Below are positions 22,174 to 62,845 of a stretch of DNA of 64,000 bases, piece by piece (positions within the stretch are counted from its first letter, which is position 1; each line of letters starts with the position of its first letter). The DNA is from Ruminiclostridium sp. GTDB taxonomy: Bacteria > Bacillota > Clostridia > Oscillospirales > Oscillospiraceae. The DNA lies in NCBI GenBank assembly GCA_022792035.1, contig JAAWAE010000099.1, positions 1 to 64,000 on the forward strand, written 5' to 3'. The position numbers were made by a program, and so were the translations under genes. The notes below the pieces were generated by a model. The model was given only the letters and a program-made list of their open reading frames with translations. It made no database searches and was not told the origin of the DNA.

Positions 22174-22213
22174 ATCCCAACAGAACACCCTATTCATGAA
22201 AGGAGACTGCCCT

Positions 22214-23056
22214 GTGAATTTTTGGAAGATGAACGGAGCCGGAAACGATTTTATCATCCTCAGCAATATGGACCGCCAGCTCCCCCCCTCCGCCCTGCCC
22301 CAGCTGGCCCGGATCCTCTGCACCCCCCATCTCTCCCTGGGTGCCGACGGGCTGATGGTGGTGGAGCCCTCCGCCCAGGCGGATTTCAAGATGCTCTTTT
22401 TCAACAGCGACGGCTCCGTAGGCGAGATGTGCGGCAACGGCGCCCGGTGCATCTGCCGCTACGGCTATGAGACGGGCCTGTCCGGGGTGGAGCCAGCCGT
22501 CGAAACCACCGCCGGGCTCGTCACTGGACGGCGCATCGACCAGCGGCACTACCGCATCCGTCTCAACGATCCCACCACAGTGCGCCTGCACGAGACCATG
22601 GAGGTGGAGGGCAAAGCCTATCCCCTGGCTTATGTGGAGCTGGGCAACCCGGGTCTGCCCCACGCCGTGGTCCCCTTTCCCGGTCTGGCCCAGGCGGACC
22701 CCCAGGCGCTGTTCCGGCTGGGTCGGGCCCTGCGCTACCACCACGCCTTCCCCAAAGGGGCCAACGTAAACTTTTATGAGGTCACCGGGCCGGATCAGGT
22801 CCTGGAAAAGACCTACGAACGGGGCGTGGAGGATTTCACCCTGGCCTGCGGCACCGGCACCGGCAGCGTTGTAACGGTACTGACCCTGCTGGAGCAGGTC
22901 AGCGGAAAGGACGTGCAGGTGACCATGGACGGCGGGGTCCTGACTGTGGACGTGGACCGGGAGGGTCCCCAGGTCAAAAACCTCTGGCTCACCGGGCCGA
23001 CCAATCTCGTGGCTAAGGGGGAGATTTTCGACGAGGAGCTTCCGGCGCTGCGCTAA
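22214..23056 (+). CDS. dapF: Diaminopimelate epimerase
   Basis: Converts LL- to meso-diaminopimelate for lysine and peptidoglycan synthesis, without cofactor. 280 residues from GTG 22214, chosen because AAAGGAGACTG lies before it; the upstream ATG 22196 overlaps that site. MNFWKMNGAGNDF is the classic start. The two catalytic cysteines are in SVGEMCGNGARC (C73) and LACGTGTGS (C212). Length is normal. It faces dapH across a shared bidirectional terminator and stands next to the other acetyl-pathway genes. Confidence 0.97.
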   Translation: MNFWKMNGAGNDFIILSNMDRQLPPSALPQLARILCTPHLSLGADGLMVVEPSAQADFKMLFFNSDGSVGEMCGNGARCICRYGYETGLSGVEPAVETTAGLVTGRRIDQRHYRIRLNDPTTVRLHETMEVEGKAYPLAYVELGNPGLPHAVVPFPGLAQADPQALFRLGRALRYHHAFPKGANVNFYEVTGPDQVLEKTYERGVEDFTLACGTGTGSVVTVLTLLEQVSGKDVQVTMDGGVLTVDVDREGPQVKNLWLTGPTNLVAKGEIFDEELPALR

Positions 23057-23148: not shown

Positions 23149-23844
23149 TCAGAGTTCCCGCAGGGCCTCCACCAGGGCGGTCTTTTCCGCCGCCCTCCCG
23201 TCCTTACGCTTGAGGACCCGGGCAGGCACCCCGGCCACCACGGTGTCCGGCTCCACGTCGCTGACCACCACGGCCCCGGCGGCCACCACGGCCCCCTTGC
23301 CGATCCGGCAGCCCTCCAGCACCACGGCGTTGGCGCCGATCATCACGTCGTCCTCCACCACAACGGGGACGGCGCTGGCCGGCTCCACCACCCCGGCCAG
23401 GACGGTCCCGGCCCCGATGTGGCAGTTCTTCCCCACCATGGCCCGGCCACCTAGGACCGCGCCCATGTCGATCATCGTCCCGGCGCCGATGACGGCCCCG
23501 ATGTTGATCACGGCCCCCATCATGATGACGGCGTTGTCGCCGATCTCCACCTTTTCCCGAATCACGGCCCCCGGCTCAATGCGGGCATTGATGTCCTTCA
23601 TGTCCAGCAGGGGGATGGCGGAGTTGCGGCAGTCGTTCTCAATGACCACCTGCTCCAGATCCCCGGCGCGGGCCTCCAGGACAGGGGCGATCTCCTTCCA
23701 ATCTCCAAAGACGATCTTGCTCTCCCCGCAGGGGAAGACCGTGGCGTTGGGGAAGTCTACGGGAGCCTTTTCCTTCACGAACACCCGGACGGGCGTTTTC
23801 TTCTCCGCTGTGCGGATGCGTTCAATGATTTCCTGTGCGTCCAT
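23149..23844 (-). CDS. dapH: 2,3,4,5-tetrahydropyridine-2,6-dicarboxylate N-acetyltransferase
   Basis: 231 residues from ATG 23844 (AAAGGAGGAACC upstream). The N-terminal ~85 residues ([20 protein letters not shown]) are the DapH-specific domain. A left-handed beta-helix of hexapeptide repeats ([20 protein letters not shown] and onward to [20 protein letters not shown]) forms the trimeric acetyl-CoA site. It acetylates tetrahydrodipicolinate, opening the acetylase branch of diaminopimelate synthesis. The divergent M20 deacetylase and the following aminotransferase supply the later steps. Confidence 0.96.
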
Positions 23845-23941: not shown

Positions 23942-25075
23942 ATGACTGTGATCCAACACCGCCAGGCCCTGCACCAGATCCCCGAGCTGGACCGGGACCT
24001 GCCCAAGACCCTGGCTTACCTGGAAGAAGTCCTGACCCCTTTGGGCTGTACCCTCTCCCGGCCCTGTGCCGGGTGCCTGTGCGCCTTTTTTGACTTTGGG
24101 CGGTCCGACGCCGTGGCCTTTCGCAGCGACGCCGACGCCCTGCCCATCCAAGAGGAAACGGGCCTCCCCTATGCCTCCCGGCACCCGGGACAGATGCACG
24201 CCTGCGGCCACGACGGCCACATGGCCATGCTCCTGGACCTGGCCCAGTGGCTGTCCGCCCAAGCGGCACTGCCCCACAACATCCTCCTGGTCTTCCAGGG
24301 GGCGGAGGAGACCACCGGCGGGGCCCGGGACCTCTGCGAAAGCGGGATCTTCGAGACCCGCCGGGTCCGGTGCATCTTCGGGATGCACCTCTGGCCGGAC
24401 CTTCCCGCCGGGGTCATCGCCAGCCGGAAAAACGAGCTGATGAGCCGCTCCTGTGAGGTCAGCGTGGAGGTCCTGGGGCGTTCCAGCCACATCGCCAAGG
24501 CATCGGAGGGCATCGACGCCCTGGCCGCCGGGGTGGCCTTCTACCGCCGGGCCCTAGCCCTGGAGCAGTCCCTGCCCCCGGAGATCTTCCGTCTGCTGAA
24601 ATTCGGACGGATGGAGAGCGGCACGGTGCGCAACGCCGTCAGCGGCAGGACGGTGCTTCTAGGGAGCCTGCGGGCCTTCCAGGACGAGGTCTTCTTCGGC
24701 CTGCGGGACGGCCTGCGGGACATCGCCCAGGCGGTGGAGGCGGAGAGCGGATGCACCGTCACCGTCCACACCAACGACGGCTACCCCGCCGTCTGGAATC
24801 CCCCGGCGCTGTTCGACGCGGTCCGCCGCTGGGGGCTGTCCTTCCAGACCCTGGACGCCCCGGTGATGATCGCCGAGGATTTCTCCTGGTACCAGCGCCA
24901 TCTGCCGGGGCTGTTTTTCTTCCTGGGCACCGGTCCCTCTCCGGCCCTCCACGCCGCCGGCTTCTCTTTCCAGGAGGAGCTCCTCCAGACCGGCGCGGCC
25001 TTCTGGAAGGATCTCGTTTCCAAACTTCCCCAGGACCTGTCCGATTTCCATGGGAAAATTCAAGGTTTTTTATGA
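23942..25075 (+). CDS. M20-family amidohydrolase, probable N-acetyl-diaminopimelate deacetylase
   Basis: 377 residues from ATG 23942 (GAAGGAGGGAGCGATCC upstream). M20/M40 metal-site motifs are present: FRSDADALPIQEETG, HACGHDGHMAMLL and FQGAEETTGGARDL, then the dimer domain starting near SRSCEVSVEVLGRSSH. Family members cut N-acyl amino acids (hippurate, acetyl-DAP, indole-acetyl-amino acids). Divergent dapH and an aminotransferase just downstream make N-acetyl-LL-diaminopimelate the best guess for its substrate. The assignment rests on context; the fold is certain. Confidence 0.9.
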   Translation: MTVIQHRQALHQIPELDRDLPKTLAYLEEVLTPLGCTLSRPCAGCLCAFFDFGRSDAVAFRSDADALPIQEETGLPYASRHPGQMHACGHDGHMAMLLDLAQWLSAQAALPHNILLVFQGAEETTGGARDLCESGIFETRRVRCIFGMHLWPDLPAGVIASRKNELMSRSCEVSVEVLGRSSHIAKASEGIDALAAGVAFYRRALALEQSLPPEIFRLLKFGRMESGTVRNAVSGRTVLLGSLRAFQDEVFFGLRDGLRDIAQAVEAESGCTVTVHTNDGYPAVWNPPALFDAVRRWGLSFQTLDAPVMIAEDFSWYQRHLPGLFFFLGTGPSPALHAAGFSFQEELLQTGAAFWKDLVSKLPQDLSDFHGKIQGFL

Positions 25076-25219
25076 AGTGGTGCAGCTGCAACAGAATTTT
25101 TCCTCCCATCCTGTTATCCTAAGGCAGGAAGGTGAAAAAGCATCGTCTCTCAGCACGAAAGCACCCCCCGCGATCCCATCGTTTTTATTTTTATTTATAT
25201 AATGTAGGAGGACGACACC

Positions 25220-26359
25220 ATGACTGAACTTCTCAACCGCAACCTCTTATCCCTGGACCCCCACGACCCCCAGCGTTTCGTAACCCTGGCCAAGCAGACG
25301 GAAGACTGCATCCTGCTCACCCTCAGCGAGCCGGATTTCGGCATCTCCGACGTGGTCCGCACCAACGTCCCCAAATCCCTGGAGACCGGCCGGACCCACT
25401 ACGTCCCCGCCCCCGGCGATGACAGTATGCGCGTGGCCGTCGCGGACTTCGAGCGCCGCACCATGGGCCTGGACTACAGTTACGACGAGGTCATCACCAC
25501 CGTAGGCGGCACCGAGGCGTTGTACCTGGCCCTCCAGGGCATCCTGAACCCCGGCGACGAGGTCATCATCCCCCGCCCCGCCATCGGTCTCTATGAGAAC
25601 ATTGTCCGCCTCTCCGGCGCGGTCCCCGTTTTCCTGGACACCACCGAGGATGCCTACCAGATCAACGGCAGCAAGCTCTCTGCCCTGGTGAACGAGAAAA
25701 CCAAGGCCGTCGTCCTCAACTCCCCCAACAACCCCACCGGCGTCGTCCTCACCAACGAGAGCCTGCAGGCCGTCCGGGACGCTGTGGCGGACAAGCCCAT
25801 CTTCGTCATCTGCGACGATGTGTACAACCGCGTGGTCTATGAGGGGACCTGCCCCTCCTTCGCCGCCGCCTTCCCCGAACTGAAGGCACAGACCCTGGTG
25901 GTCCAGAGCCTGAGCAACTCCTATGCCATGGCCGGGTTCCGGGTGGGCTATCTCCTGGGGGCAAAGCCCGTCATCGAAAAGCTGACCCTTCTCCACACCT
26001 CCGCCGTGAACTGCGTGGTGGCCTTCAACCAGGACGCCGCCATCAACGCCATTCACTCCGACATCATGGGGATGGTCTGGGCTTACGACTCCCGCCGCAA
26101 GTTCATGGAGGAAAAGCTCACGGCTCTGGGCATGGACTTCGTGGCTCCCCAGGGCGCCTTCTACGTCTTCCCCTCCATCCAGAAGTTCGGCCTGGATTCC
26201 GAGACCTTCTGCACCCGCCTCATCCAGGAGGCCAAGGTGGGGGTCCTGCCGGGCATCTGCTTCGGGTCGGACGATCACATCCGCATCTCCTACAGCGCCC
26301 CCATGGGCAACCTGCGCATGGCAATGGCCCGCTTTGAGAACTTTGTGAAATCCCTGTAA
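25220..26359 (+). CDS. Class I/II aminotransferase-fold protein with Asn at the PLP-lysine position
   Basis: 379 residues from ATG 25220 (AGGAGGACGACACC upstream). The fold-type I aminotransferase plan is complete: TVGGTEALYLALQ, LNSPNNPTG (166-174), ICDDVY (197-202) and the substrate Arg in IRISYSAP. In this family the coenzyme lysine stands in S-K-x-Y-A-M-x-G-x-R-x-GY. Here that stretch reads LSNSYAMAGFRVGY, so residue 233 is Asn (AAC at 25916-25918) instead of Lys. By context it would be the N-acetyl-LL-diaminopimelate aminotransferase, but without the lysine normal transamination should be lost or strongly slowed. A sequencing error of one base (AAG to AAC) would also explain it. Confidence 0.88.
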   Translation: MTELLNRNLLSLDPHDPQRFVTLAKQTEDCILLTLSEPDFGISDVVRTNVPKSLETGRTHYVPAPGDDSMRVAVADFERRTMGLDYSYDEVITTVGGTEALYLALQGILNPGDEVIIPRPAIGLYENIVRLSGAVPVFLDTTEDAYQINGSKLSALVNEKTKAVVLNSPNNPTGVVLTNESLQAVRDAVADKPIFVICDDVYNRVVYEGTCPSFAAAFPELKAQTLVVQSLSNSYAMAGFRVGYLLGAKPVIEKLTLLHTSAVNCVVAFNQDAAINAIHSDIMGMVWAYDSRRKFMEEKLTALGMDFVAPQGAFYVFPSIQKFGLDSETFCTRLIQEAKVGVLPGICFGSDDHIRISYSAPMGNLRMAMARFENFVKSL

Positions 26360-26377
26360 TTTCCGAACCAGCGCCAA

Positions 26378-26424
26378 AAAGGCGGACCAAGTCCTGCCCC
26401 TTGCGGGAGACTTGGTCCGCCTTT
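26378..26424. terminator. Bidirectional terminator between aminotransferase and SleB-like genes
   Basis: AAAGGCGGACCAAGTC (26378-26393) and GACTTGGTCCGCCTTT (26409-26424) pair perfectly over 16 bases between two converging genes. Confidence 0.85.
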
Positions 26425-26444
26425 CTGCTGATGTGTTTTCCTGC

Positions 26445-54213: not shown

Positions 54214-57200
54214 TCACATGGTCATGACATAGTGGAGGATCATCGCCACCTCCGCGCGGTTGATGGTGGACTGGGGCCGCAGGTAGCCGTTGCTGTCCCC
54301 GTTCACCGCGCCCAGGCGGACCAGGGTGCTCACGGCGTCCCGGGCGTACTCCGACACCCGCCCGCCGTCGGGGAACATGGACAGATTCTCCGTGGAGCTG
54401 CTGCCCACGCTCCAGTTGGCCGCCCGGAGGGCGTTGCGGACCATAACCATGGCATCCTGCCGGCTCAATGCCCCGTTGGGATTGAAATAATTCCCGCCGG
54501 TGCCGTTGATGATGCTCAGTTCCCGGGCCGCCGCCACGGCGGAGGTGTAATAGGTCCCGTTGGGCACGTCGTAGAAGCCGGCGCTGTCGTTCACTGCCGT
54601 GAAGTGGAAGGCCCGGCAGATCATCACCACGAAGTCACAGCGGCGCACGTTCTGCCCGGGGCTGAAGGTATTGGGCGAGGTGCCGTTGATCACGCCGTTC
54701 TGGGCCAGGAAGTTCACGGCGGAGTTGGCCCAGGTATAGCGCCCCATGTCGGTGAAGTTGGTGGAGCTGTAACCGGCGGTGACGTTGATGCGGATCTCAC
54801 CTTGGACCCGCTCTCCGTCGGTGCCGTAGCCCTCGTAGGACAGCACAGCGGTGCCCTGGAAGCCGCCCCGGGGGACGAAGCTCAGCTGGTCGATGGTGGG
54901 ATTGCCGGAGACGTAATACCGAGTCCCGGTGCTCACCTGGCTGCCGGTGTTCAGGCCGCTGTAGCCGATGTAGAGGTGCCCCACGCTGGTAGAGGGCAGG
55001 CTGGTGAACTGGATATAGGACAGTTCCTTGCTCAGCACCGCGTTGCAGGCACTGCGCACGTCGGAGCTATAGAGGCGGATGGCGCTGGAATCCGTCCCGG
55101 AGTAATTGACCACGTTGGGGGTGGGGGTGCCCACAGTGATGTTCACGGTGCCGGTGAATTTCTCGCCGTCGGTATTCCAGCCGGTGTAGCCGATGCTGAC
55201 CGAGCCGTTGTAGCTGGAGTTGGACACGAAACTCAGGTTCCCGATGCGGTTGCCGCTGTTTCGGTAATAGCTGGTATTGGTGCGCACCGTGGTGCCGCGG
55301 TTGGTGCTGCTGTTGTAGTTGTAATAGAGGGTGCCGCGGCTGGAAGAGGGCAGGTCGTCGAAGCGGATATAGTTCAGGCTCTTGCGGGTGGCGGCGATGC
55401 TGGCCTCGTTGAAGTCGTCGGCGTTGAAGCTCACCGCCTTGCCGCTGTTGACCTTATACTGGATGGTCTTGCTGCCGGTGGCGCCGTCCACGCCTACGTC
55501 GATGCTGACGGTCCCCTCCTCATAGCGGCCGCTGGTGTTGTAGCCGGTGTAGCGCAGGGTCACCCGCCCGGTAAAGGTGGAATTGGGCACGAAGGTGATA
55601 TCCGAGATCTCCCCGTCCGGGGAGGAGTGACTGCCGGTGCGGTAGTACCGGGCGCCGGTGTCCACGGCGGTGCCGCTGCTGCTGCTGCTGCGATAGTTCA
55701 GGCGCAGGCTGCCCTGGCTGGAGGTGGGCAGGGAGTTGAAGCGGATATAATTCAGGGTGCCGGAGATGGCGCTGTTAAAGTCCGCGGCGCGAAAGTCCAC
55801 GGGGGTGTCCTTGGCGGTCTTGTAATAAACGTCATCCCCCTGGTTCTCGTCCAGGTTGTTCACCGTGATGGTGATCACCCCGGAGAAGGCCGCCCCGGCG
55901 GTGTCCACCCCCCGGTAGTCGATGGAGACGGTGCCGGTGTAGCCGGAGGCGGGGACGAAGCTCACGCTCTCCAGGTTGGGGTTGGCGGTGCGGCGGTACT
56001 GGGTGTTGGCCCGGACCTTTTCAGCGTATTGGGTCTGGCCGGTGTAGTTATAGTACAGCGTGCCCCGGCTCTCGCTGGGGAGGGTGAAGGTGACGTAGCT
56101 CAGGTCCCGGCCTGTGTGGGCGCGGCAGACGGTGTTGAAGTCGTTGCCCTGGAACTGGATGGGTTTGTCTTTGCCGGTGGTGTAGGTGACATCCTTCATC
56201 CCCTCCACGTCCACGCGGATGATCCCGCTGAAATTCTGGTTGTTGGTGGCAACGCCGGTATAGTGGATCTCCGCCACGCCGCCGAAGGTGCTGCGGGGGA
56301 CGTAATACAGCTCGCTCATGTCCACCTGACCGTTGCCGGAGCTGACATAGAACTTTTCCGTCATGCCCACGCCGGAGCCGGTGTCCGCCTCGGAGATATA
56401 GCCGTGGTGGACGATGCCCTGCTTGGTGGCGACGGACAGGTTTGTGATATACTTCAGACCGAAGCCGTCGGGGTTCTCCTCGCTCTTGGTCTTTTCCCTG
56501 GAAATCCGGTGGAGGGCATTGATGAAGGATTCCCGATACTCCTCGTCCTTGTTTTCCTCCACGTTGATGAAGGTCACCTTGGTGTTGGCGTCCTTGAGTT
56601 TAATAGGGTTGCCTGCCGAGACGTGGTTGAGGACCGTGATCATAGCAGAGGTGTCTTCCTTCACCGTGACCTTGCACTTGGCCTGATAGTCGCCCTTGGT
56701 GCAGGTGACGGTGGCGGTGCCGGGAGACATCCCGGTGAGCATCCCGCCGGTGACGGTGACCACGGAAGCGTCGTCGGAAATCCACTCAGGCCGCTGGACG
56801 CGGTCGGAGGACACGTCGCCGTAGTTGCGCTCGATGCTCAGCGTGTGGGTCCTGCCCTGGATGACCGTGACCTCCTCGCTGCTGAGCACAAAGCCGGAAA
56901 CAATCACCTTACATTCTTTTGTAATCTCGGTCTTCTTGCCATCTTCGATGAGGGTTGCTTTTAAGGTGACCTCCCCCGGATTTTTGGGGAAGAGCGTTAT
57001 TTGCGTCCCTTTCTCGTCGAAGGGCTCCATCGTGAGGACGGCCTTCTGCTTATCCTCCCAGTTTTCATCCCCGATGATCTCCCATTCGATTTTCTCCGGA
57101 ACAGCATTTTCTGGATCAACATCAACCGTCAGACGAATCGGCTGCTGGGTCTTGCTGGTGATTTGCAGTTCATCACGACTGAGGAATATATCGGTAGGCC

Positions 57201-57579
57201 GTTCAACCGGGGTTGGTTCTGTCACTGTTACGGTACACGTCCCGGAATACTTCTTGTCACCTACCGTTGCCTCAGCTGTAATCGTCGCAGTGCCTGCTTT
57301 CACAGCTGTAACCGTTCCTGCCTCCACTGTTGCAACTGCCTCGGCACTGCTCTTCCAAGTGTACTTTATCTCTTCAGAAACCCCGGCAATGCTTGCCGTT
57401 ATATTTCCTGATTTCCCAACTTCCAGGGTCATTGTTGTCGGGTCTAGGTCTATTGTCCCTGTGTCAGCTGGCGGGTCAGTCTCCGGCGGGTCTGCTGCCA
57501 GCGCCGTGACCGACAGGGACGCCACCAGCGCCAGGGAAAGCGCCAGCGCCCCTATTCGGCGTAATAAATCAGATTTCAT
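54214..57579 (-). CDS. Large SLH-anchored surface protein with Big_2-type and tandem unknown repeats
   Basis: 1121 residues. A signal peptide ends near residue 28 (SVTALAA). Two or more bacterial Ig-like (Big_2) modules follow (LDPTTMTLEVGKSGNITASI; VTGGMLTGMSPGTATVTCTK). From about 395 to 930 run four full and one partial repeats of ~110 residues. Each has a LNYIRF/LSYVTF line, RGTLYYNY, RYYR and an I.Y.G...G.-F.G.V.I.V close. Three SLH domains end the protein (from about 935). It is probably an S-layer-like or adhesive fibre held by its C-terminus. The first ~230 codons are AT-richer than the rest (see findings). Confidence 0.88.
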   Translation of the reverse strand: MKSDLLRRIGALALSLALVASLSVTALAADPPETDPPADTGTIDLDPTTMTLEVGKSGNITASIAGVSEEIKYTWKSSAEAVATVEAGTVTAVKAGTATITAEATVGDKKYSGTCTVTVTEPTPVERPTDIFLSRDELQITSKTQQPIRLTVDVDPENAVPEKIEWEIIGDENWEDKQKAVLTMEPFDEKGTQITLFPKNPGEVTLKATLIEDGKKTEITKECKVIVSGFVLSSEEVTVIQGRTHTLSIERNYGDVSSDRVQRPEWISDDASVVTVTGGMLTGMSPGTATVTCTKGDYQAKCKVTVKEDTSAMITVLNHVSAGNPIKLKDANTKVTFINVEENKDEEYRESFINALHRISREKTKSEENPDGFGLKYITNLSVATKQGIVHHGYISEADTGSGVGMTEKFYVSSGNGQVDMSELYYVPRSTFGGVAEIHYTGVATNNQNFSGIIRVDVEGMKDVTYTTGKDKPIQFQGNDFNTVCRAHTGRDLSYVTFTLPSESRGTLYYNYTGQTQYAEKVRANTQYRRTANPNLESVSFVPASGYTGTVSIDYRGVDTAGAAFSGVITITVNNLDENQGDDVYYKTAKDTPVDFRAADFNSAISGTLNYIRFNSLPTSSQGSLRLNYRSSSSSGTAVDTGARYYRTGSHSSPDGEISDITFVPNSTFTGRVTLRYTGYNTSGRYEEGTVSIDVGVDGATGSKTIQYKVNSGKAVSFNADDFNEASIAATRKSLNYIRFDDLPSSSRGTLYYNYNSSTNRGTTVRTNTSYYRNSGNRIGNLSFVSNSSYNGSVSIGYTGWNTDGEKFTGTVNITVGTPTPNVVNYSGTDSSAIRLYSSDVRSACNAVLSKELSYIQFTSLPSTSVGHLYIGYSGLNTGSQVSTGTRYYVSGNPTIDQLSFVPRGGFQGTAVLSYEGYGTDGERVQGEIRINVTAGYSSTNFTDMGRYTWANSAVNFLAQNGVINGTSPNTFSPGQNVRRCDFVVMICRAFHFTAVNDSAGFYDVPNGTYYTSAVAAARELSIINGTGGNYFNPNGALSRQDAMVMVRNALRAANWSVGSSSTENLSMFPDGGRVSEYARDAVSTLVRLGAVNGDSNGYLRPQSTINRAEVAMILHYVMTM
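54790..56400 (-). repeat. Tandem ~110-codon protein repeats in the surface gene
   Basis: Four full units and a partial fifth are recognisable from recurring LPSSSRGTLYYNY-, TxYYR- and YTGxxTxGexFxG-type lines at a spacing of 105-115 codons. They diverge at the base level, so they are old duplications and not a fresh DNA repeat. Bounds are approximate. Confidence 0.7.
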
Positions 57580-57618
57580 AATCGGTACTCCTTCGCGCGG
57601 TTTGCTTGTTTAAGGAAA

Positions 57619-57644
57619 GGAGCGGGCGGGAATCCGCCCGCTCC
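57619..57644 (-). terminator. Terminator between the two giant surface genes
   Basis: GGAGCGGGCGG and CCGCCCGCTCC pair around GAAT, 15 bases after the upstream gene's stop (leftward reading), followed by a T/C-rich tract. Confidence 0.75.
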
Positions 57645-57659
57645 TATTTTCAATGGTTG

Positions 57660-60600
57660 TTACTTCGTTCCGTCCCAGGGTGCGTTGACAGTTGCTTGAA
57701 GCGAATACGCATACACTGGTTTCTTATTCTCATCCTGTCCAATTTCGGTTCTTACAACCTCAACGGTAACTTTGAGCGGAGCACGGCCCAAGCCATTACG
57801 AGACTGGTCGCAGATACTGTTTCTAAATGTAAAGCTAGCCGGACCTCCCCCAAATCTCATATTTGAGACCTTCATTCTAATCGTGTTAATTGCTGTCTCA
57901 CTTGAGTGGTCCTTATCTGTAATCAAGCTGAGAGAAGTTGATGCGCCCCCTAGATTACCAATAGCAATACACTCGTTATCCTTAAGGTGGGTCGGGCTTG
58001 CCTGACAATTATCGACCGGGTAAACATTCTGAGTCGTACTGCCTGCATCAACAGCGTAGAGTGGTTCACTAAATGTCAAACTCAATGTTCCATTAGTTGT
58101 AAGGTTGCCCAACGGACTAAAGGTATACCCTCCCACATCAGCCGATACAACCATAGGCGGTGTAGTATCGCTTAGTGTAATGGGATAGTATGCACGGAAG
58201 GCATCTCCAGAACCATTAGCCCCTCTACCCACTGACACGAAAGTATACATAACTCCCATGCTCATATTAGTACATTTAATTTGATTCTTAACTGTGTTCT
58301 CGTCCTCATGCCTATAGGTTCCTGAACCAGTCATAACAATTTGGTTGCCCGTAACGCTAGAACTGCGAATAATCGAAGCATAGTCATTCTTGGCCTGAGT
58401 TGTAGCATAGATGTCAAACACACTGCCCTTATACACGTTACCTGCATAACAAGGTGTCGCCATGGCATCTATTACAGTCATTCCATTCTTTTCGCCATCA
58501 TTTTGACTGTACGTAAAGGTATAAGTACCATCCGAGTACTGTCCTTTACCTCCACCTGCCACCGGGTTTACCTCGTTTTTCCATGTGTCAATAGCGTATC
58601 CGCTAAACAGCAGCTGGAATTGCTCACCTTCACCCTTATTCTGTGCCAAGAAATAATCAAGCTTTGTTGTTCGGTCTACCTTAACATTGACAGTATCTCC
58701 CGTCGCGCTCAAGTCAATACTGGGTCGAATAGCCTCTTCTGTAACAAAGCGGAAACCAATCGCGTTTTCAGAGTAAACTGCCGATGTTGCTCTCGTCACC
58801 ATACAAACATAATAGACGGTGTTAGGTTTGAGGCCATCCAAGTGAATCAACGCCGCTGTATTGGCCGCCACGTTGTTTGTATTCCCCTTGATCACGTCAT
58901 CTGTAAATCTTCCGCCAGTGACCATATTGACGGTGGGCAGAGACAAATCCTTTCCGTTTTCAGTAGCATCCTGCGGCCTGCGTCGATCCCCGAACATCAA
59001 TGGCATATCGGAAAGGGCTATATCCTTTGACTGCAAATCGGCTACTCGCACAGAAGACGCATAAGCACTTATATTTTTAAGCACATCTTCCGTAAGTACT
59101 GTCGTGTTGCTATCAACCAGTGTGCTCCCATTTCTGAGAGAAGACAGCGGGAACACCAGATAATATACCTGGCCAGGGCGATCCATCATCACTCTAATGT
59201 CTGTGCTGATATCGCCTACATCAGCTATGGGATATCCAGCCGAAATGATGGGCGCTTTACTGTCTGTAAAAGGCTTTCTAATATTGAAGGGGTCGGGAGT
59301 ACCGATGGCGGCCACGCCGCCTTCCAGTGCCGCTTCATAATCCGAGAGGAAACTTCCCGTGGCAAGGCTGCTCAGCTGGTACTGGGTACCGGCCACAATA
59401 GAAATCCTCACATTCAGAGTATGGTTCCATGCTGTAAAATCGTCACTGTCGCCCAACTTGTTTATATGGATGGCATACTCCTTTGTTCCCAGCTTGGACA
59501 GGGTCCCAAAATCAGGTGTTTGGTCATCCATGACCACGCGGTGCATACTCGCATAAACCGAACCGTCTTGGGCGGCAACCGAGATGGTTGTATCTTCACC
59601 AACCTTTGTCCATGCCCCGGCCGTACCATCTGCTCCAATGTCTCTGGAGTAGAGTGCAAACTCTATGGTGCTGTCTGTCCAAATCAGCATATCCCACTTC
59701 ATGCCCGGGTCCACACGGTCCACGGAAATCGGCTCAGCCAAGAAGTCGATGTCGATACGGTTTTTGGGATTCTTCTCCGGCTCTTTGTCTACACCCTCAA
59801 CACCCGTGATCGTCCACGTATCCCCCATACTCAACGCCACCTGTGCAAAGAGGGTGCGGAAGTCGGGAAGGGTGGTGTTCGCCATGACGTTGGGGGTCAG
59901 GGCGGTGTCGTAGATGCTCTCCACACGGAAGTAGTACGTCGCGCCGCTGTCCAGGTTCAGGGCACTGGGTTCCTTCGCCGTGTCGTTGGTGGTGGGGAAG
60001 GTGACGATCATCTTGCCCTCTTCCATGGTCACGGTGGCGAAACGGTAGTCGATGACCCAGGAGCCGTCATTGGTCGGGTTCCCGTCCGGGCTATGATTGT
60101 CCTTATTGCCGATCTCCACCTGGACAGGCCGCCCCGTGGCTGGCCTACGCCAGAGCTGGATGTGGCTGCTGAGCACTTCGCCCAGTTTTTCCCGGGCCGC
60201 GTCTCTCTCCGCTTCGCTGGCGGCATCCTTCACATCCCGGTACAGTTCCATCAGGACCTCGTCGCCCTTTGGCGTGCCCTGCACGCTCTCGGAGAAGACC
60301 AGGCGGATGTCGGTGCTGGCCAGGGGTTCGTTGACGTTATCGTCGTTGTACTTGGTGAACTCCTGGGTCACGGTGGGGGGGGTGGTGTCCAGGGTGCGCA
60401 CGGGGAGCATCTGGACCTCTTCGCCGTAATTCCCTGCCCGGTCCTTGGCTACATAATATAATGTATAGGACGTGGTGTGGGTGGTGTTGGTGTTCAGGCC
60501 GGAGATGGCCAGACGGATGTCGGTATCCGCTTTGGCGGCGCTGCTGCTGCCCTTGCGCAGGGCGCCCACGCCGGACTCCACCTTGACCTTGGCTTCCAGG

Positions 60601-62765
60601 GTGTCCAGGTCATAGCTCATGAAGGTGTCGTTGCCTTCCGCCACGATGGCCCACAGCAGGTTGCCGGGCTCGTTGAGGGCGTAGGTCACTTCCAGAGCGG
60701 AGGCCTGGGCGTTGGTCTGCATGATGTCGGTCACCACCGGCGGGGTCTCGTCGGGGGTCTTGAAGGTCACCTTCTTCACCGCGGAGCTCTTGGCCCCATC
60801 GTAGTCGGTGAGCCAGAGGTAGAGATCATAGTCCGTCTGCTCGGTCAGGGTGATGCTGTTGACGTTGATGGGCTGTGTCACGTTGCGGACCACATCCACC
60901 ACGCCATAGCCCCAGTTGCCGGTGACTGCGCCGGCCTTCATCTCCTGTGCGGTGGGGGCAGTGCTGCCCTTGGAGAGCAGAGCGTAATAAAGCAGGCAGC
61001 TCTTGTTGGCCATGACGGTAACCTGAGAGGTCTTTGTGGTGGTCTTCGTCATCACCGGGTACCCGGTGGTAAAGGCGGGCACAGTATCGTCCGGGGTGGA
61101 GAAGGCCGCAACCTTCAGGGGGCTGTGATTGCCCCGGGCATCCACCATGACGGCGGTGATGTAATAGGAGCCGTCCTTGGTCAGGCCGGTGACGTTGGCG
61201 GTGTACTCCGTCTTGGACTTGTCGGCCTTGACGTTGCCGGATTTCAGGATAGTACCGGCGTAGCTGGGCGGGTTGATGAGCACGTCTTCTCCCACGGAGC
61301 CGTCGGCCAGGGCGGTAATGGCCCAGTAAACGGTGCCGGCCTTATTGGTGCTGAACACCAGGGTGGCGGAGGTGGGGGCGGTGTTCTTGGCCATGGGATA
61401 CCCAGCCAGCAGGCGGGGCTCGGCGGAGGACTCGGCGGCGGTGGCGCTGTCCATCACGGTCCCGCCGATGGTAGCGGTGATGCCCGGGCGGATGGTGATG
61501 TTGTCGGGCAGCATGGTCACCACGCAGCCGGAAGCGGCCACGTTGAGGGTGCCGATGTCGCCGTTGCCAGAGACGCTGGTGCCCACGTCCAGGTTCAGCT
61601 CTTCGATCCGGGCCCCGGCGTCGATGCTGACGGTGGAACCGGTGGCGTGCTCGTCGATGGTGACCTTCTGGGCGGTGCCCTGGGTCATTTGCAGGGCGGA
61701 GCCGGGGGTCAGGTTGACGACTTCCTTGATGTTCCCGGCCAGCTGGAGGCGGGTGCCTTCCTCGCCGTCCAGCTCGATGAGGTGCAGGCCGTAGCCGGCG
61801 GGGCAGGCGTCCTCCACGAAGGAGTTGGTGCGCACGCTGGTTTTGGTGATGCTGGTGTCGCCCTCGGCGCGGACGGTGACGAACTGATTGCTGATGTTGT
61901 CCACGATGAGGGCATCGGCCACCACGTTGCGCAGGTTCACGCTGCTCTGGCTGGACTGGCTCTCGCCGGCGCCGCTGACCACGATCTGGCCCCGGACGGT
62001 GACGTTCTCCAGCAGCACATCCCCCAGACCGATGCCGCCGGTGAGGTAAAGATTGCCCACGATGATGGTGTTGCGCAGGTTCACACCGGAGGAGTTGATG
62101 GTAACGTTGCCGTAAATGCTGCCCAGGTTATAGTCTCCCGGTTCCTGGACCAGATTGCCCAGGGCCCGGGCCAGCATGGCGGCCACCTCGCCTCGGGTGA
62201 TCTGGTTTTGAGGCCGGAAGGTCCCGTCGGAGTAGCCGTTGACCACGCCCTCATTGACGGCGGCGCCGATGAGGCCCCGGCTCCACTCGCTGAGGGTGCG
62301 GCTGTCGGAAAAACCCAAAGTCTCGCCCACGGTGGGCTGGAGCATCAGGTTCCGGGACAGCAGGACTGCGGCCTGTTCCCGGGTCAGGCTTCCCCGGGGG
62401 ACGGCGGTGGTCTCCGAGGTCCCCTGGAAATAGCCCACATTGTAGGCGATGTCGATGTCCTCGGCATACCACTCGCTCTCCGGCACGTCGGTGAAGGGGT
62501 TGCCGTTGAGGTTATCGTAGCCGTAGGCCCGGTTGATCAGGGCCACGAACTCAGCCCGGGTGATGTTGCGGTCCGGGTTGAGATTGCCCTGGATGTCCCC
62601 TCGCATGACGTTCCAGTCGGAGAGGGTATCCAGGTATTCCTGGGCCCAGCTGGCCGCCTGGGCCGTGGGGGTGATGACGGGGAGGAGCCCAAACAGCATG
62701 ACCAGGGCCAGGAAAAAGGCCGTCAGCTGGCGGGGCAGCCTCTGAACTAGGACTCGTTGTTTCAT
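57660..62765 (-). CDS. Giant surface protein with N-terminal SLH domains
   Basis: About 1701 residues from ATG 62765 (AAAGGA upstream; a TTG 27 bases earlier is possible). A long signal peptide (RQLTAFFLALVMLFGLLPVI to AQAA) precedes three SLH domains (about 38-200; RAEFVALINRAYGY, REQAAVLLSRNLML, RGEVAAMLARALGN). Next is a beta-rich stretch with repeated N/V/L lines (about 205-420). Many Ig/fibronectin-like modules starting with DxTPPxV follow, one SbsA-like (TTPPTVTQEF, STDIRLVFSESV). Anchoring is N-terminal here but C-terminal in the next gene. The last ~700 codons have lower GC than the first 1000, a sign of mosaic origin. Confidence 0.87.
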   Translation of the reverse strand: MKQRVLVQRLPRQLTAFFLALVMLFGLLPVITPTAQAASWAQEYLDTLSDWNVMRGDIQGNLNPDRNITRAEFVALINRAYGYDNLNGNPFTDVPESEWYAEDIDIAYNVGYFQGTSETTAVPRGSLTREQAAVLLSRNLMLQPTVGETLGFSDSRTLSEWSRGLIGAAVNEGVVNGYSDGTFRPQNQITRGEVAAMLARALGNLVQEPGDYNLGSIYGNVTINSSGVNLRNTIIVGNLYLTGGIGLGDVLLENVTVRGQIVVSGAGESQSSQSSVNLRNVVADALIVDNISNQFVTVRAEGDTSITKTSVRTNSFVEDACPAGYGLHLIELDGEEGTRLQLAGNIKEVVNLTPGSALQMTQGTAQKVTIDEHATGSTVSIDAGARIEELNLDVGTSVSGNGDIGTLNVAASGCVVTMLPDNITIRPGITATIGGTVMDSATAAESSAEPRLLAGYPMAKNTAPTSATLVFSTNKAGTVYWAITALADGSVGEDVLINPPSYAGTILKSGNVKADKSKTEYTANVTGLTKDGSYYITAVMVDARGNHSPLKVAAFSTPDDTVPAFTTGYPVMTKTTTKTSQVTVMANKSCLLYYALLSKGSTAPTAQEMKAGAVTGNWGYGVVDVVRNVTQPINVNSITLTEQTDYDLYLWLTDYDGAKSSAVKKVTFKTPDETPPVVTDIMQTNAQASALEVTYALNEPGNLLWAIVAEGNDTFMSYDLDTLEAKVKVESGVGALRKGSSSAAKADTDIRLAISGLNTNTTHTTSYTLYYVAKDRAGNYGEEVQMLPVRTLDTTPPTVTQEFTKYNDDNVNEPLASTDIRLVFSESVQGTPKGDEVLMELYRDVKDAASEAERDAAREKLGEVLSSHIQLWRRPATGRPVQVEIGNKDNHSPDGNPTNDGSWVIDYRFATVTMEEGKMIVTFPTTNDTAKEPSALNLDSGATYYFRVESIYDTALTPNVMANTTLPDFRTLFAQVALSMGDTWTITGVEGVDKEPEKNPKNRIDIDFLAEPISVDRVDPGMKWDMLIWTDSTIEFALYSRDIGADGTAGAWTKVGEDTTISVAAQDGSVYASMHRVVMDDQTPDFGTLSKLGTKEYAIHINKLGDSDDFTAWNHTLNVRISIVAGTQYQLSSLATGSFLSDYEAALEGGVAAIGTPDPFNIRKPFTDSKAPIISAGYPIADVGDISTDIRVMMDRPGQVYYLVFPLSSLRNGSTLVDSNTTVLTEDVLKNISAYASSVRVADLQSKDIALSDMPLMFGDRRRPQDATENGKDLSLPTVNMVTGGRFTDDVIKGNTNNVAANTAALIHLDGLKPNTVYYVCMVTRATSAVYSENAIGFRFVTEEAIRPSIDLSATGDTVNVKVDRTTKLDYFLAQNKGEGEQFQLLFSGYAIDTWKNEVNPVAGGGKGQYSDGTYTFTYSQNDGEKNGMTVIDAMATPCYAGNVYKGSVFDIYATTQAKNDYASIIRSSSVTGNQIVMTGSGTYRHEDENTVKNQIKCTNMSMGVMYTFVSVGRGANGSGDAFRAYYPITLSDTTPPMVVSADVGGYTFSPLGNLTTNGTLSLTFSEPLYAVDAGSTTQNVYPVDNCQASPTHLKDNECIAIGNLGGASTSLSLITDKDHSSETAINTIRMKVSNMRFGGGPASFTFRNSICDQSRNGLGRAPLKVTVEVVRTEIGQDENKKPVYAYSLQATVNAPWDGTK

Positions 62766-62845
62766 GATGGATTCGGATTCCTTTCTGCCCAAGTGCTGCC
62801 GGGGCAGCGGCGGGCGATCTCATGGTTTTCGCTTGCGATCTATAC

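Follow-up and report, generated by a model that had tools for sequence, protein, structure and literature searches.

What does an aminotransferase homologue do when it is encoded beside genes of the acetylated diaminopimelate (DAP) route and lacks the lysine that binds pyridoxal phosphate (PLP)? In class I aminotransferases, the internal aldimine is formed by this lysine, which also performs the proton transfer, so that ordinary transamination is very unlikely once it is gone. Such a homologue is encoded in the window, i.e., the whole stretch of 64,000 nucleotides analysed here, the source of which (genome G000) we take to be a gut or rumen bacterium. An earlier note on this DNA had reported that the PLP lysine is replaced by asparagine, and had left three options, namely, that another enzyme fills the acetyl-DAP aminotransferase step, that the protein has a new role, or that one base is wrong. 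The features concerned are the following:

22196..23056, + strand: dapF, diaminopimelate epimerase (profile)
23149..23844, - strand: dapH, tetrahydrodipicolinate N-acetyltransferase (339 bits, cut-off 232)
23942..25075, + strand: M20 amidohydrolase, presumed N-acetyl-DAP deacetylase (profiles)
25206..25211, + strand: ribosome-binding site aggagg, 8 nt 5' of the ATG (read from the sequence)
25220..26359, + strand: lysine-less aminotransferase homologue (PatA/DapX type), 379 aa (profiles, tree, AF2 model)
25325..25327, + strand: codon 36 (Ser); Gly in 38/38 lysine-bearing sisters, Ser in G011 too
25583..25585, + strand: codon 122 (Ile), where an aromatic normally stacks on PLP; 38 sisters have F/Y, G011 has Val
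25916..25918, + strand: codon 233, AAC (Asn); Lys in 105 aligned homologues (alignment)
26378..26424, + strand: strong hairpin with a short tail containing Ts after it; probably an intrinsic terminator 3' of the gene

The open reading frame runs from an ATG start to a TAA stop and contains ...QSLSNSYAMAGFRVGYL... Its product matches the Pfam profile PF00155 over residues 29-371 (187 bits, E 7e-55), and its AF2 model (mean pLDDT 93.6) finds structural matches among solved class I enzymes at Z about 50. By whole-domain profile and fold, the protein thus belongs to the class I/II aminotransferases, but the Schiff-base lysine of the class is missing, with Asn233 both here and in the orthologue from G011, another genome of the genus. 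The lysine motif of the window protein reads SLSNSYAMAGFR, and in the homologue alignment asparagine occurs at this column only in these two proteins. Codon and alignment therefore bear out the replacement that had been reported.

The suspicion of a wrong base had some ground, as the window is known from a single MAG. A search of the genus, however, returned the G011 protein, which is 53% identical to the window protein, comes from an independently assembled genome, and has the lysine motif SLSNSNALPGFR with the codon likewise AAC; the G011 contig is also present in a named collection as Ruminococcaceae bacterium RUG12702. The alignment of orthologues that the earlier note had called for hence shows both residue and codon conserved in a congener, and several correlated changes lie in the same pocket. 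A single-base sequencing or assembly error is ruled out by the G011 copy and has practically no probability left; the loss of the lysine is real and inherited, since a second species of the genus has it too. An alternative genetic code was considered and rejected, since no anomaly appears when the adjacent genes are translated with the standard code; to our knowledge, AAC stands for lysine in no genetic code.

The ancestry of the gene can be read from its relatives. A maximum-likelihood tree from which the active-site columns were excluded unites the two asparagine proteins in one clade (100/100) nested within a lysine-bearing PatA-type clade, the members of which are 39-49% identical to the window protein. 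The lysine-bearing sister genes lie near dapH and the M20 deacetylase gene in 14 of the 15 loci fetched, and two genomes (G324 and G230) have the exact order of the window, in which dapH is oriented divergently to the deacetylase and aminotransferase genes. Among structures, the AF2 model matches 9a7o_B best, from a GpsB-DapX entry (Z 54.2, rmsd 1.3, 376 residues, 34% identity), the DapX of which we take to be PatA of Bacillus subtilis. The best NCBIfam profile is NF005817, aminotransferase A (PRK07683; E 4e-93), and the window protein scores 312 bits against its curated cut-off of 575; the lysine-bearing sisters, at 349-372 bits, likewise stay below it, so that the profile covers this clade poorly. 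Tree, synteny of the sisters, and the DapX match together show the gene to be a descendant of an N-acetyl-DAP aminotransferase of the PatA/DapX type; by descent and synteny it belongs there, even if it misses the NF005817 cut-off. Position and similarity suggest that the lysine-bearing sisters would carry out the acetyl-DAP step. The earlier expectation that the gene should encode this enzyme is thus right as to descent and position, while present activity is unlikely. Best profile, top structural match, and gene neighbourhood of the sisters all liken the protein to PatA (DapX), from which it differs by having neither the PLP lysine nor the stacking aromatic, and a serine for the glycine. A table in PMC6522883 counts PatA among the essential proteins of B. 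subtilis. As a side observation, the acetyl-DAP aminotransferase is modelled in PDB 9a7o together with the cell-division protein GpsB, a lead for a non-catalytic role in the family; the PDB title was the sole source found for a GpsB-DapX pair, DapX being unmentioned in the papers checked.

The changes are not confined to the lysine. All fold-type I landmarks had been thought present, which holds apart from the PLP-stacking aromatic (Ile122) and the glycine of L-G-E-P-D-F (Ser36). The latter is the invariant Gly36 near the substrate and is serine in both asparagine proteins, whereas F or Y occupies the equivalent of W140 of aspartate aminotransferase (AspAT) in all 38 lysine-bearing sisters examined. 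By motif alignment with AspAT, both proteins have therefore lost K258 (K233), the W140-type aromatic (F122), and the glycine near the substrate (G36). Further changes common to both are Thr42->Ile, Pro43->Ser, Phe231->Leu, Pro234->Ser, and Trp240->Phe, and the columns of Gly36, Thr42, Pro43, Phe231, Pro234, and Trp240 are fixed or nearly fixed in the 38 sisters. Retained in both are Y61, N171, D199, Y202, S230, R241, and R355 (Y70, N194, D222, Y225, S255, R266, and R386 in AspAT, respectively), and the equivalent of T109 is Thr or Ser. PLP, PMP, or an amino-acid adduct could thus be held without covalent attachment. Such preserved cofactor binding is a possibility only, because the pocket is kept no better than the remainder: 8 of 13 pocket columns are kept in both copies versus 62 of 97 other conserved columns. 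The window protein keeps 76/97 and the G011 protein 68/97 of the sister-conserved columns, against 96% in a typical sister.

Is the acetyl-DAP step then carried out by other means? The lysine-less gene occurs in 2 of the 16 genomes of the genus (G000-G015), across which the DAP route is patchy: dapH and the deacetylase gene are present in five (G000, G004, G008, G010, and G012), DAP dehydrogenase in eleven (including G011 and G010), and both in G010. Direct DapL (LL-DAP aminotransferase) had no match above cut-off in the genus. In G004, G008, G010, and G012, the dapF, dapH, and deacetylase products are 73-84% identical to those of the window, and no aminotransferase gene lies beside them (loci L111, L112, L113, and L114), although the G012 contig stops about 480 bases behind the deacetylase gene. 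The next open frame there ends in a LuxR-like helix-turn-helix, as seen by eye. G004 and G008 are 97% complete and have no DAP dehydrogenase, so that another enzyme must do the acetyl-DAP step in them, if the pathway works. Single absences in G000 and G011 are weaker evidence, these genomes being 85% and 88% complete, respectively; neither dapH nor the deacetylase gene was found in G011, which has DAP dehydrogenase. A search of the window's genome for other aminotransferases, as proposed earlier, yielded lysine-bearing candidates on contigs C75 and C65 and a class III enzyme on C20. Presumably, the step is done by another, lysine-bearing aminotransferase, and the four congeners without an adjacent aminotransferase gene lend this option of the earlier note indirect support. 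That the window protein performs the step now is unlikely, given these four congeners and the state of G011; its retention in a species with DAP dehydrogenase argues for a job, if one remains, other than the transamination of acetyl-DAP.

Whether the gene is still under selection was assessed by comparing G000 with G011. The dS of the asparagine gene (0.60) is similar to those of two control aminotransferases of the same genomes (0.55 and 0.68), which fits descent from a common ancestor at the species split; a GC3 of about 0.9 makes dS uncertain, equally for the controls. Its dN/dS is 0.67 (CI 0.52-0.86) versus 0.34 (0.24-0.46) and 0.34 (0.25-0.45) for the controls, its interval being separate from both of theirs, and one control pair is 74% identical. 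A ratio that is elevated yet still below neutrality agrees with selection that has been relaxed or altered. Apart from substitutions, the two copies are set apart by only one in-frame single-residue indel and a two-residue difference at the C-terminus, and neither has a stop; in a neutral simulation with a simple composition-only mutation model, no more than 3% of runs (in some settings 0%) still had an open frame at 0.6 events per site. As a tree of one control protein did not resolve G000 and G011 as sisters, the lysine-less gene probably dates back to an early stage of the genus, with later loss in other lines. A ribosome-binding site precedes and a hairpin follows each of the two copies; in the window, folding of 26360-26430 gives -37.8 kcal/mol (z -6.1), and TATAAT (25198-25203) stands immediately upstream of the aggagg. 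A promoter scan near the gene returned no full sigma-70 site, and no riboswitch was found at the gene, the Rfam scan of the window giving one tRNA only.

The reading preferred here, with a probability of about 0.57, is that of a pseudo-aminotransferase that has been kept for a non-catalytic role while selection on it was relaxed or altered. An essential catalytic residue has been lost while the frame has stayed open in two species, as in a pseudoenzyme, and the gene's retention is compatible with the new role that had been offered as one option. The main rival is a decaying relic: the acetyl-DAP step would have been taken over by another enzyme, or bypassed by DAP dehydrogenase, the lysine lost, and the sequence left to drift under weak constraint with its frame unbroken so far, most congeners being gene-free already. 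The same observations that weaken the pseudoenzyme reading speak for it, i.e., a dN/dS double that of the controls, the fewer conserved columns retained, and the absence of the gene from 14 of 16 genomes, four of which keep dapH and the deacetylase gene. However, two frames have stayed open over a dS of about 0.6 with only the one indel and the C-terminal difference, an outcome seldom seen under the composition-only simulation, the dN/dS interval lies under 1, and both copies are flanked by a ribosome-binding site and a hairpin; a relic is possible but rather unlikely.

Two further alternatives were considered. Fold-type I active sites are located at the dimer interface, and the protein might, by analogy, pair as a non-catalytic subunit with an active paralogue and supply residues across that interface, for which the kept Tyr61 (the equivalent of Y70, which reaches the neighbouring subunit) would be suited. 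A precedent is LCB1/SPTLC1 of serine palmitoyltransferase, a PLP-enzyme homologue that likewise has no PLP-binding lysine (PMC3794620). LCB1/SPTLC1, however, forms a heterodimer with a homologous active subunit, and no such partner is evident in the window's genome: the best full-length paralogue in this 85% complete genome is only 29% identical, and the window has no adjacent one. Heterodimers are thus not obvious, as no paralogue is of comparable similarity, and the proposal is improbable. Aminotransferase-fold dehydratases exist in which another residue replaces the lysine, so that an active enzyme with different chemistry, using non-covalent PMP/PLP or an alternative base, may also be considered; most cofactor-binding residues are kept, and a Lys52 that is absent from the sisters occurs in both asparagine proteins and might serve. 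Asparagine is a poor general base, though, the stacking aromatic is gone as well, and no neighbouring gene points to a dehydratase pathway, all of which makes this chemistry very improbable.

For the retained, non-catalytic protein, the following course of events is proposed. In a common ancestor of at least two species, an acetyl-DAP aminotransferase lost its lysine (to asparagine), the stacking aromatic, and the active-site glycine, the losses being states common to both asparagine proteins. The protein presumably still folds as a usual aminotransferase, as modelled. From their conservation, the residues for cofactor phosphate, pyridine nitrogen, and substrate carboxylate may still hold a ligand non-covalently, while ordinary transamination would no longer be catalysed at a useful rate, as the known function of the lysine leads one to expect. 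Another, lysine-bearing aminotransferase would have taken on the acetyl-DAP step, and, as the least certain point, the protein may have been kept for ligand binding or for partnering a protein of amino-acid or cell-wall metabolism. More specifically, and doubtfully, a cell-wall-precursor aminotransferase could have become a non-covalent B6/amino-acid sensor, or a DAP/peptidoglycan scaffold, kept despite an alternative DAP route.

The asparagine form was not found elsewhere in the family, from which two overlapping sets of about 400 genomes were drawn, nor among 394 genomes of the order; RUG12702 was its only occurrence among the species contigs of GTDB r220, and viral contigs gave no full-length match above 33% identity. 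A search of the open literature gave no direct precedent for natural lysine-less class I aminotransferases, and none of the papers described a PatA-type protein with a natural Lys-to-Asn change, although this does not prove novelty. Yeast Alt2, a catalytically inactive paralogue of alanine aminotransferase (PMC3458083), is comparable as an inactive aminotransferase homologue kept by evolution; unlike the window protein, it is a eukaryotic duplicate of another subfamily, and the window's genome has no close active paralogue. Among the top structural matches is Arabidopsis prephenate aminotransferase K306A (PDB 5wml), by its title without Lys306, which still folds; in contrast to the window protein, it is a laboratory mutant. 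The genus may show the aftermath of the takeover or bypass of a step, with the gene gone from most species and lysine-less in two, and may offer a natural series for the origin of a pseudoenzyme, from lysine enzyme to lysine-less protein to no gene. Caution is advised with profile annotation, which would label the window protein a functional aminotransferase and credit it with the acetyl-DAP step.

The surroundings of the two copies differ. In the window, a cell wall hydrolase domain protein (PF07486; 26445-27098) is encoded on the opposite strand just behind the lysine-less gene. In G011 (L115:13079-14284), the gene lies outside a dap cluster, directly upstream of spoIIGA- and sigE-like genes (assigned by eye), with rpoB/rpoC further along. 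Lastly, two very long minus-strand open frames of the window (54214-62792; about 1,100 and 1,700 aa) are about 31-33% identical to a portion of a protein encoded on the G011 contig.
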